Shown here: positions 2,832 through 63,976 of the stretch, in pieces
How positions within the stretch are numbered: the first letter of the stretch is position 1
Layout of the letters: every line of letters begins with the position of its first letter
Source of the DNA: Desulfovibrio sp. UIB00
GTDB taxonomy: Bacteria > Desulfobacterota > Desulfovibrionia > Desulfovibrionales > Desulfovibrionaceae
NCBI RefSeq assembly: GCF_022508225.1
Contig: NZ_JAETXJ010000006.1
Location: 1-64,000 of the forward strand
Length of the DNA stretch: 64,000 bases
Direction of reading: 5' to 3'
The notes under the pieces: model-generated
What the model was told of the DNA's origin: nothing
The model's input: only the letters and a program-made list of their open reading frames with translations
Databases searched by the model: none
Translations under genes and position numbers: made by a program

Positions 2832-3002
2832 CAAAAGCACCGGCTGCTAAGAATGGCAGCCAGATACGTCAAAAGAAGGCGCGTTCCCCGGAGCGCCGTG
2901 TCATGCTTGCGGTACAGAACCTGGATAACCAGGTCGGGCGCCTGTATGTCCTTTCCGGGCTTCCCGGTCTTGCCGGGCGTGCACACACAAAGACAGTGAC
3001 GG
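2832..3002 (-). ncRNA. ssrS: Probable 6S RNA
   Basis: Predicted minus-strand transcript of about 171 nt, close to the normal 6S length, located directly after zapA, which is the classic 6S neighbourhood. A TATAAT -10 box lies at 3014-3009 and a hairpin terminator at 2863-2840. The apical part folds as ACCTGG-TTAT-CCAGGT inside TACAG/CTGTA, and CCCGGA pairs with TCCGGG further out, leaving a large central bubble as in 6S. A GGCGC/GCGCC hairpin lies on the 3' side of that bubble. The family assignment rests on position, size and fold rather than a model hit. Confidence 0.6.
2836..2863 (-). terminator. Terminator of the 6S RNA candidate
   Basis: An 8-bp stem (2856-2863 with 2840-2847, one G-T pair) and an 8-base loop, followed on the minus strand by TGCTTTT. 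Confidence 0.5.
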
Positions 3003-3008
3003 CTCCCT

Positions 3009-3014
3009 ATTATA
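3009..3014 (-). promoter_or_regulatory. -10 box of the 6S RNA promoter
   Basis: Perfect TATAAT on the minus strand. The region 17 bases upstream (CCTCGG) is a poor -35, so recognition may depend on the -10 or on another sigma factor. Confidence 0.45.
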
Positions 3015-3076
3015 TTCTTGTCAGGTTAGCACCGAGGCATAAATCACGCGCGTCCCAGGGAAGCGCCCAAAGGAGC

Positions 3077-16823: not shown

Positions 16824-16899
16824 GCCAGCTTAGCTCAGTTGGTAGAGCAGCTGATTCGTAATCAGCAGGTCAAGAGTTCAAGTCTCTTAGCTGGCTCCA
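16824..16899 (+). tRNA. tRNA-Thr (anticodon CGT)
   Basis: A 76-nt cloverleaf with acceptor GCCAGCT/AGCTGGC, D-stem GCTC/GAGC, anticodon arm GCTGA-TTCGTAA-TCAGC, T-arm AAGAG-TTCAAGT-CTCTT and encoded CCA. Anticodon CGT reads ACG (threonine). Confidence 0.97.
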
Positions 16900-48517: not shown

Positions 48518-48594
48518 TGGTGCGCCCGAAGAGATTCGAACTCCTGACCTACAGGTTCGTAGCCTGTTGCTCTATCCAGCTGAGCTACGAGCGC
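48518..48594 (-). tRNA. tRNA-Arg (anticodon ACG)
   Basis: A 77-nt cloverleaf on the minus strand: acceptor GCGCTCG/CGGGCGC, anticodon arm ACAGG-CTACGAA-CCTGT, T-loop TTCGAAT, encoded CCA. Anticodon ACG, which would be edited to ICG, reads CGN arginine codons. Confidence 0.97.
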
Positions 48595-60110: not shown

Positions 60111-60428
60111 CTAGTGTCCGCAGCCGCCGCCGCAGCTGCTGCAACCACCGCCCGTCTGGGGCAGGGGCACCGTGGGTTCAACTGTGAAACCCGCGTAGGA
60201 AAGATCAATCTTCACGCCTTCAACCTGAGCAAGAAGCTCCTTGTTGATGCAGAAGGTGAATCCGCCCTGATCTTCGCTCATATCTTCATCCGTCGCGGCG
60301 TCCAGGGCAAGGGCCAGATGGGGCCCGCTGCACCCGCCGGGGGCGAGGTAAACGCGAATGGTGCTTTTTTCCTTACCTTCAAAAAAGGCCGCCAGTTCCT
60401 TCTGGGCGCTTTCGGTCAGTTCAAGCAT
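60111..60428 (-). CDS. HesB/IscA-like protein, Cys form
   Basis: A 105-residue A-type Fe-S protein-like fold. The conserved Cys is in APGGCSGPHLAL; the C-terminus has the Cys-rich tail GGGCSSCGGGCGH, different from the usual CGC motif of IscA. It lies immediately downstream of a Sec-containing paralog and has its own TATAAT (60466-60471). GGAGG lies 4 bases before the start. The role may be in Fe-S or selenium handling. Confidence 0.8.
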   Translation of the reverse strand: MLELTESAQKELAAFFEGKEKSTIRVYLAPGGCSGPHLALALDAATDEDMSEDQGGFTFCINKELLAQVEGVKIDLSYAGFTVEPTVPLPQTGGGCSSCGGGCGH

Positions 60429-60483
60429 GGTTCCTCCGATGTTTTTCGATACGCTCGATATGTATATTATATGGTAGAGTAAC

Positions 60484-60516
60484 GAAAAACAGGCTGGCCT
60501 GCTTCGTCCGGCCAGC
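60484..60516 (-). terminator. Terminator between the two HesB-like genes
   Basis: GCTGGCC pairs with GGCCAGC (60493-60499 with 60510-60516), followed on the minus strand by CTGTTTTTCG. Confidence 0.7.
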
Positions 60517-60532
60517 GGGAAACCACCCCGCC

Positions 60533-60859
60533 TTACGCGTTGCTGCCGCAGCCGCTTGAGCAGCTGCTGCAACCACCGCTGTTGCCTTCAGAAGCGAAGG
60601 GCACTACGGGTTCAACCGCAAAGCCCATGTAGGTTAAATCAATTTTTACACCCTGCACTTCTGACAGAAGAGCACTGTTGATGCAGAAGGTGTAGCCGGC
60701 CTGTTCCTCGGTTTGATCCTGGTCGTTAGGCTCATCCAGAGCCAGGGCAAGGCGCGGGCCGCCTCAACCTGCGGTCATGTAGACCCGGATGGGATCCTTT
60801 TTCTTGCCGGTAAAGAACGAATCCAGTTCCTTACGGGCGCTGTCGGTCAATTCGATCAT
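60533..60859 (-). CDS. HesB-like selenoprotein with in-frame TGA (Sec32)
   Basis: A 108-codon frame with TGA at codon 32 (60766-60764) and TAA at the end. Before and after the TGA it matches its neighbour closely (LTDSARKEL, YTFCINSALLSEVQGVKIDL, GGCSSCSSGCG). The TGA falls on the conserved Cys: VYMTAG-U-GGPRLALAL against VYLAPGG-C-SGPHLALAL. A hairpin lies 21-35 bases downstream. Selenoprotein HesB-like families are known in deltaproteobacteria. GGAGGACGT is upstream. A stop-based caller would split it into two non-genes. Confidence 0.88.
60729..60743 (-). promoter_or_regulatory. Candidate bacterial SECIS hairpin
   Basis: GGCTC-TGGAT-GAGCC in the coding RNA, starting 21 bases after the UGA. 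It has a G in the apical loop and is at about the right distance for SelB binding. A GGCG/CGCC stem lies closer to the UGA. Confidence 0.55.
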
Positions 60860-61884: not shown

Positions 61885-62979
61885 ATGAAACCAGGCTTCA
61901 ACTTTTTCTCCACCACAACAGGTATCATCGCCACCGGGCTTGTGTTCGGCGTGCTTGCCGTATTGCTCCAGCAAATGGGCAATCCCGGCAACATGGGCAT
62001 CTGCGTGGTCTGCTTTAACCGCGATATCGCTGGCGCTCTGGGCTTTCACCGCGCTGCCGTCGTGCAGTACCTGCGGCCCGAAATCATGGGCATGGTGCTT
62101 GGCGCATTCGGCGCGGCGCTGGCCTTTGGCGAATACAAGCCGCGCGGCGGCTCGGCCCCCATCACCCGCTTTTTGCTTGGAGGCATAGCGGGTATTGGCG
62201 CGCTGGTCTTTCTGGGTTGCCCCTGGCGCGTTATTCTGCGCCTGGCTGGCGGCGACGCCTTTGCACTCTTTGGCCTTGCGGGCCTGATCTGCGGCGTGGG
62301 CATTGGCACCATTTTTTTCCGCATGGGCTTTTCACTTGGTCGCAGTCAGGGCCAGAGCAAAATTTCCGGTCTGGTGCTGCCCGGCATCATGCTTTCCTTC
62401 GTGGCCCTGTATCTGCTCAATCCGCAGGTGGCAGAACAGCCGCAGAGCGGCGTACTCTTCTATTCCGTCAAAGGGCCCGGCGCACAGCATGCACCCTTTA
62501 TACTCTCCATTGGCGTGGGGCTGATAGTGGGCTTTCTGGCCCAGCGCAGCCGCTTCTGCACCATGGGAGCCCTGCGCGACGTGATGCTGTTCAAGCAATG
62601 GCATCTGGCACTGGGATTTCTGGCCATGCTGGGCGCGGCCCTTGTTCTGAACCTGTATTTCGGCGCGTTCAAGCCCGGCTTTGAAAACCAGCCTATCGCC
62701 CAGCCCGACAACCTCTGGAACTTCCTCGGCATGGCTACTGCCGGTCTGGCCTTTGCGCTGGCGGGCGGCTGCCCTGGCCGTCAGCTCTTTATGGCTGGCG
62801 AGGGCGACAACGACGCCGCTGTATTTGCCGTTGGCCTGATCGTTGGCACCGCTGTTGCCCATAACTTCGGCTTGGCCTCCAGCCCCGCAGGGGTCGGCCC
62901 TCACGGCATGGCGGCCACCCTTGCCGGCCTTGCCATCTGCCTGTGCATCGGATTTTTCAACTGCAAGAGAGGTGCGTAA
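61885..62979 (+). CDS. yedE: YedE-family putative selenium transporter
   Basis: A 364-residue membrane protein of the YeeE/YedE family with about ten segments. The conserved cysteine motifs are GNMGICVVCFNRDIAG, FLGCPWR, RFCTMGALRD and AGGCPGRQ. The YedE branch is associated with selenium metabolism. It overlaps tusA by one base. GGAGG precedes the start. Confidence 0.85.
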   Translation: MKPGFNFFSTTTGIIATGLVFGVLAVLLQQMGNPGNMGICVVCFNRDIAGALGFHRAAVVQYLRPEIMGMVLGAFGAALAFGEYKPRGGSAPITRFLLGGIAGIGALVFLGCPWRVILRLAGGDAFALFGLAGLICGVGIGTIFFRMGFSLGRSQGQSKISGLVLPGIMLSFVALYLLNPQVAEQPQSGVLFYSVKGPGAQHAPFILSIGVGLIVGFLAQRSRFCTMGALRDVMLFKQWHLALGFLAMLGAALVLNLYFGAFKPGFENQPIAQPDNLWNFLGMATAGLAFALAGGCPGRQLFMAGEGDNDAAVFAVGLIVGTAVAHNFGLASSPAGVGPHGMAATLAGLAICLCIGFFNCKRGA

Positions 62980-63197
62980 TGTCTACCACCATCGACACCC
63001 GAGGGCTTTCCTGCCCGCAGCCCGTACTCATGTTTCTTACCGCTGCCAAGGCCGATGAACAGGGGCCTTTCAGCGTATTGGTGGATAACGACGCCAGCCT
63101 TGAAAATGTCAGCCGCGCTGCCCGCAACCGGGGATTTGCCGTCAGCACCACTGAAGAGGGCGAAGGCATAACGCGCATAGACATCCGCAAGGATTAA
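62979..63197 (+). CDS. TusA/SirA-like sulfur/selenium carrier
   Basis: A 72-residue TusA-fold protein; the active Cys is in DTRGLSCPQPVLMF. It carries a persulfide or selenide and works with the transporter in the same operon. The start codon overlaps the yedE stop (TAATG). Confidence 0.85.
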   Translation: MSTTIDTRGLSCPQPVLMFLTAAKADEQGPFSVLVDNDASLENVSRAARNRGFAVSTTEEGEGITRIDIRKD

Positions 63198-63349
63198 CAG
63201 TCGGATTGGCGAACTGGTGGCGCGGGTGAGCAAAACGCCCGCGCCGCAACTGCCGCCAGATCAGCCAATGATGGCTGAAAGCTGCAATCCTCCAGCTCTC
63301 GGCACGAGTGCTGCAACATATCCGGCGATCCAGCGTTTCGGGAGACATC
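63198..63349. other. Intergenic region, no gene seen
   Basis: About 150 bases between tusA and the DUF3343 gene. No structure stands out. Confidence 0.4.
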
Positions 63350-63976
63350 ATGACGCAGAACAGTTCCCAGAGCAGCCTGCTGCAGGGCTTTGCGCAAAAA
63401 CTGCGCGGCCTGTTTTCTCCCGGCGGCAAAGATTCGGATATGGATGCTCGCGGCGGCGGCAAACGCGGTTGCAACGACCGAGGTCTGCTGGTTTTTGACC
63501 ACACTGGCGAGGTTATCCGCGCCGAGCGCCTGCTGTGCAAGGCCGGGTTGGATGTGGAAGTAAAGGGGCCGCCGCCGGAACTGCGCACAGGGTGCGACAT
63601 GGTGGTGGTTTTTGAACTGGTGAGTCAGGCGCGCGTTCTGGATGTTCTGGAACGGGAAGGTCTTGAGCCCCGTCAGGTGGTCAGCGCCCACGATGTGCTG
63701 CTGGAGCCTGTGTCCCTGTTTCAGATAAAACATCTGGATGACCGCTGGCTGATGGTACGCGCCGCCAATATGAAAATTACCCTTGATGCTGCTGACGGAC
63801 GCATTGTGAATATTTCAGGCGGCGGCTGCCCTGATGTGCCGTGGGTGGCGCATCGGCTGTGCGGCCTGCGCCTTGATGAAGCCCCGGAACCCCTGTCCCT
63901 GGGGCAGACCCTCTGCTGCTACAGCCTGCAAAAGGCCTTTGAAGAACTGCGGAGGCAAGTCGCATGTGGTGCATAG
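63350..63976 (+). CDS. DUF3343-domain protein in the selenium cluster
   Basis: A 208-residue protein. The DUF3343-like core (GLLVFDHTGEVIRAERLL, GPPPELRTGCDMVVVF) is followed by a second domain with ISGGGCPDVPWVAH. DUF3343 proteins occur next to YedE/TusA in selenium metabolism. GGGAG precedes the start. The last bases overlap the next gene. Confidence 0.75.
   Translation: MTQNSSQSSLLQGFAQKLRGLFSPGGKDSDMDARGGGKRGCNDRGLLVFDHTGEVIRAERLLCKAGLDVEVKGPPPELRTGCDMVVVFELVSQARVLDVLEREGLEPRQVVSAHDVLLEPVSLFQIKHLDDRWLMVRAANMKITLDAADGRIVNISGGGCPDVPWVAHRLCGLRLDEAPEPLSLGQTLCCYSLQKAFEELRRQVACGA

Follow-up and report, generated by a model that had tools for sequence, protein, structure and literature searches.

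Table 3 of a 2006 paper (PMC1794560) gives HesB-like proteins as selenoproteins of both D. vulgaris and D. desulfuricans, in agreement with the claim of a preliminary description of the present DNA that such selenoproteins exist in related bacteria. DVU_1382 was named as a HesB-like selenoprotein in 2007 (PMC1914089), and UxGP has been given as the Sec motif of the family (PMC13188914). An archaeal HesB-like selenoprotein was identified via mutagenesis and 75Se labelling; its function is described there as "not clear", and an unpublished observation cited in the same paper has the mutant unimpaired in nitrogen fixation (PMC11097638).

The present study concerns a 64,000-nt stretch of Desulfovibrio sp. 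UIB00 (hereafter, the window), which carries a further HesB-like selenoprotein gene at 60533-60859, a kind of gene known in these bacteria since 2006. We put at about 93% the probability of the overall reading, namely, a HesB-like selenoprotein in which UGA 32 specifies selenocysteine, with an IscA-like predicted fold and a role most likely in Fe-S (or Se/S) carriage or something related. The features of the locus are as follows.

60533..60859, minus strand: gene for the HesB-like selenoprotein (108 aa, U at residue 32), ending in TAA
60764..60766, minus strand: in-frame TGA, codon 32, probably read as selenocysteine
60729..60743, minus strand: putative bacterial SECIS-type hairpin core GGCUC-UGGAU-GAGCC, from comparison and folding
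60111..60428, minus strand: Cys-form HesB-like paralog, 105 aa, Cys33, directly downstream of the Sec gene on the same strand
61885..62979, plus strand: YedE family putative selenium transporter (TIGR04112, 450.9 bits, cut-off 200); context, outside the gene
62943..63197, plus strand: TusA/YedF-N-like protein (PF01206); context
63308..63976, plus strand: putative Se/S carrier domain protein (PF11823); context

Reading frame and family membership

Translation of the minus strand at 60533-60859 yields 108 codons and a TAA, with one TGA inside, and GGAGG lies four bases 5′ of the ATG. The read-through frame with TGA at codon 32, which the preliminary description had proposed without naming a strand, is thus borne out. 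The product contains the Sec motif UxGP as UGGP. The TGA had also been said to align with the catalytic Cys of the tandem paralog; in BLASTP (55 of 89 aligned columns identical, one gap), codon 32 does fall on Cys33 of the paralog, beside the one-residue gap. This register is supported by the loop of many homologs from other genera, which is one residue longer and reads PGGU or SGGU.

The translation had been proposed for a search against HesB-like selenoproteins. With C in place of U, it passed the cut-off of NF038090 (IscA_HesB_Se) in hmmscan (90.4 versus 85 bits), as did the paralog (104.8 bits); in a six-frame genome search, the Sec copy reached 83.7 bits, just below that cut-off. TIGR01911 (HesB_rel_seleno) gave a partial match at E 5.2e-8 and 33.4 bits, below its cut-off of 66.35, and the score for Pfam PF01521 was likewise under cut-off.

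HesB-like matches were found in 185 of 199 genomes of a family sample and in 56 of 61 genomes of a genus sample. Among the matches listed, the sole stop inside any homolog match was TGA; its place at codon 32 was established in the fetched loci, a subset of the rows in the match lists. These 70 loci (L021-L090), comprising the best-scoring family and genus matches plus one further match set out of all matches, held 128 copies by tblastn. Removal of identical proteins left 51 Sec copies and 64 without TGA, the latter including five without Cys at the TGA column (L038, L042, L045, L047, and L049); for codon counts, thinning at 93% identity left 39 and 50, respectively. Related genomes had been suggested as a place to look for a true stop at this position. 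There, they have TGA or else a sense codon, for Cys in most cases, with the downstream frame conserved; among the 50 TGA-free copies of the thinned set, this column holds Cys 45 times, Glu three times, Ala twice, and Trp never.

After the TGA, dN against 14 related Sec copies ranged from 0.04 to 0.24, and dS from 0.11 to 1.8 in 13 of them, being saturated in one. All 13 comparisons with a defined dS gave dN < dS, although the values for the nearest relative (dN 0.055, dS 0.105) are too small to weigh much. Judged by these substitution rates, purifying selection acts on the frame downstream of the TGA.

The hairpin and the selenocysteine machinery

The hairpin claimed just downstream of the TGA is present at 60729-60743, its loop beginning 26 nt after the UGA. 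Folded alone, the hairpin stretch of this copy is only modestly better than its shuffles (z -1.79; 11 of 200 as good), and therefore, a single sequence would not prove the hairpin. In the comparison of homologs, however, the signal is far beyond chance. The string GGCTCTGGAYGAGYC stands at the same distance after the TGA in all 51 distinct TGA copies versus 3 of the 64 copies without TGA, all five core pairs form in 51/51 versus 4/64, and the stretch has a mean energy of -10.8 versus -6.0 kcal/mol. The core consensus across TGA-bearing homologs, GGCUC-UGGAY-GAGYC, is too invariant to reveal covariation; pairing outside the core varies among copies and is absent in some. Furthermore, codons 40, 41, and 43 are GCT, CTG, and GAG in every one of the 39 thinned Sec copies, whereas in the 50 thinned TGA-free copies, GCT encodes 9 of 48 Ala, CTG 30 of 44 Leu, and GAG 15 of 27 Glu. 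This lack of synonymous variation in the Sec copies argues for an RNA constraint beyond that of the protein.

A published bacterial SECIS model specifies a loop of 3 to 9 nt, a stem of 4 to 16 bp, a G in the first two loop positions, and a spacing of 16 to 37 nt (PMC13188914). A SECIS check had been recommended for this region; the loop here is 5 nt, the stem 5 bp, the G at loop position 2, and the UGA-to-loop spacing 25 nt, all within the model on these four constraints, which the comparison covered. An Rfam scan of the window at gathering thresholds returned three matches and no SECIS family. These three are a 6S RNA and two tRNAs, at 2881-3064, 16824-16896, and 48521-48594.

The preliminary description had proposed a genome check for selA, selB, selC, and selD and would have counted a lack of the first three against Sec insertion. 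All four occur in the genome (3.46 Mb, 20 contigs, listed as 100% complete): selA matched at E 1.9e-172; selB exceeded its cut-off in one 702-aa frame covering model positions 1-339 and 461-580 of 581; tRNA-Sec (selC) scored 74.5 bits (gathering score 47); and selD scored 312.5 bits. The selD gene (C2:584190-585134, L018) has one in-frame TGA of its own, and SelD is therefore probably also a selenoprotein here.

Across the genus sample, 34 of the 45 genomes that have a selA match (one of the 45, G219, with a weak selA match only) also have a TGA-bearing match, versus none of the 16 without, several of these 16 being incomplete genomes. A stricter count, dropping G235 with its single weak, partial TGA row, gives 33/45 versus 0/16 (Fisher p 1.5e-7, uncorrected for relatedness). 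In the family sample, selA was present in 89 of 96 genomes with a TGA row among the matches listed; the seven without a selA match have listed completeness of 69 to 96%.

The Sec genes, the NF038090 match, the conservation of the hairpin, the co-occurrence with selA, and the selection after the TGA together support the Sec insertion at codon 32 that had been proposed, and neither of the two outcomes named beforehand as refuting it was observed. On this reading, tRNA-Sec and SelB, brought in by the hairpin immediately 3′ of the codon, would insert selenocysteine at UGA 32.

Other readings of the TGA fare poorly against these observations. The standard code reads TGA as a stop, and the window hairpin in isolation is modestly stable only; both would suit a real stop that leaves a broken gene or a 31-aa peptide. 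The recurrence of the TGA at one position in 51 distinct homologs, dN < dS past it, and the intact downstream tail and stop codon make a real stop very improbable. Because TGA is one base from a Cys codon (TGC/TGT), a sequencing error or a chance mutation in this assembly might also be suspected; the same TGA in other genus and family genomes, including the near relatives L051 and L065, already refutes this, and with the hairpin accompanying the TGA, the chance left to it is practically nil. We found no point in support of UGA being read, independently of SelB, as another amino acid such as Trp. The column composition, without a single Trp, the absence of a TGA row in 16/16 genus genomes lacking a selA match, and the agreement of the hairpin with four constraints of the published SECIS model all oppose this reading, which we hold to be extremely improbable. 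Selenocysteine being the preferred reading, the gene call is settled: the product is ~108 aa, not a 31-aa stub.

Tandem copies, Cys orthologs, and genomic setting

The tandem Cys form may be an isoform that has no need for selenium. TGA and non-TGA rows often, though not always, lie a few hundred bases apart, and the Sec copy stands alone at several loci (e.g., L036, L056, L077, L079, and L082). At L038, L042, L045, L047, and L049, all from one related genus, the Sec/Cys pair is followed in tandem by a third HesB-like copy, which has Glu or Ala at the conserved position, and at L049, a Sec copy was also observed beside the third copy. Weak tandem pairs of IscA-like frames (22 to 28 bits) were seen at G220:C69:37313-37859 and G235:C101:44031-44601, with an in-frame TGA in three of the four frames. 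Among the papers listed in a literature search, none had a title on tandem Sec/Cys HesB pairs. A terminator between the two copies was suspected by eye, but a scan found none, and the fold of 60476-60540 is weak (z -1.42), which lends no support to separate transcription of the copies. A quick tree of 115 copies (89 columns, 48 open forks) needs 12 changes, only two of which are forced by well-supported branches, and it is too weakly resolved to decide on a single origin of the Sec/Cys pair.

In this tree, four Cys copies group with the Sec copies (L054, L055, L057, and L087; SH-aLRT 84-90), L087 on a long branch. The entire hairpin core is kept in L054 and L057, is one base off in L055, and is lost in L087. 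No selA match was found in the genomes of L054 (G236), L057 (G199), and L087 (G206), the lack being less sure for G199 since it is listed as 89% complete; selA is present in that of L055 (G235). Thus, two of the three non-TGA copies with the hairpin core are Sec-to-Cys orthologs in genomes without a selA match; the third is the Cys copy of L021. A hairpin remnant has been described for a Desulfitobacterium HesB-like protein (PMC1794560), and remnant hairpins are therefore already known as a phenomenon. Tandem Sec/Cys pairs, together with Sec-to-Cys orthologs that retain a hairpin in genomes with no selA match, form a compact natural series of selenocysteine gain and loss.

The YedE/TusA selenium cluster placed 1 kb away by the preliminary description was found there: yedE starts at 61885, ~1.0 kb off, with the TusA-domain and PF11823 genes next, and yedE and the PF11823 gene both lie within 3.2 kb of the Sec gene. 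YedE and DUF3343 (PF11823) have been linked to selenium use (PMC5322559), and the row of three genes at 61885-63976 fits published selenium-trafficking candidates. In the set L061-L090 (30 genus loci, one of them the window's own), tblastn matched mfd at 29 loci, pyrR at 26, and yedE at 7; these loci are ~3.3 kb long, and many stop before yedE could show. The mfd/pyrR setting is accordingly kept. In ten further loci (L051-L060, eight of them ~8 kb), yedE appeared in two. We thus set aside yedE as a fixed neighbor, a general linkage being unsupported by these counts.

Predicted fold, function, and relation to known systems

A model predicted from 55 aligned sequences has a mean pLDDT of 84.4; residues 91-108 are unreliable, the Cys-rich tail being predicted at low confidence. 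The best solved structures against it were IscA 1x0g (Z 11.2; rmsd 2.4 over 91 residues), E. coli IscA 1s98 (Z 11.1), 1r94 (Z 10.5), and SufA 2d2a (Z 10.0), and the Sec protein is accordingly predicted to have an A-type (IscA/SufA-like) fold. The phmmer alignment (E 0.0036) pairs the TGA residue with the Cys in "TSGCSG" of E. coli IscA, which we take to be Cys35, a cluster ligand. Given this alignment and the IscA-like fold, Sec likely replaces a cluster ligand; it would stand where IscA has its first conserved cluster-binding Cys, and the protein may bind an Fe-S cluster. In IscA, the C-terminal CxC supplies the cluster ligands Cys99 and Cys101. This CxC is absent from the Sec copy, whose tail reads GGCSSCSSGCG; C97 and C104 do not vary across the 55 aligned sequences.

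We infer that the protein most likely serves in Fe-S (or Se/S) carriage or in a redox step related to it. The more specific proposal of an A-type Fe-S carrier in which the selenolate directly ligates the cluster, with the Sec and Cys isoforms of the tandem sharing the task according to selenium supply, is, in our estimate, rather unlikely. A selenoprotein that keeps only the fold and acts as a redox or metal/selenium-binding protein, not as an Fe-S carrier, is a serious contender, at somewhat under even odds. The Sec copy scores 21.9 bits against the TIGR02011 (IscA equivalog) cut-off of 150.6, and at E 0.001 it matches neither the SufA nor the ErpA profile; the Cys copy falls far short of the cut-offs for IscA, SufA, and ErpA; and a Cys-rich tail takes the place of the CxC pair. 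The function "not clear" and the unaffected nitrogen fixation reported for the archaeal homolog and its mutant (PMC11097638) also favor such a protein, whereas the agreement of the fold and of the Sec position with IscA speaks for carriage, the role we prefer. A sulphate reducer with adjoining Sec and Cys isoforms offers a convenient place for testing the biochemical role of the family.

Compared with the IscA/SufA carriers, the Sec copy is alike in predicted fold and in the alignment of its Sec with the conserved Cys of E. coli IscA, but differs by Sec for Cys, by the missing C-terminal CxC, and by a score far under the IscA equivalog. Both window copies exceed the NF038090 cut-off in hmmscan, the Sec copy falling just short in the six-frame search, and the resemblance of the Sec copy to TIGR01911 is partial and below cut-off. 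With the known HesB-like selenoproteins, it shares a small IscA/HesB-related product, Sec in UxGP, a sulphate-reducing host of the same group, and a TGA followed by a hairpin. By the published tables and motif, we see no difference in kind from that family; here, the gene stands in tandem with a Cys paralog.
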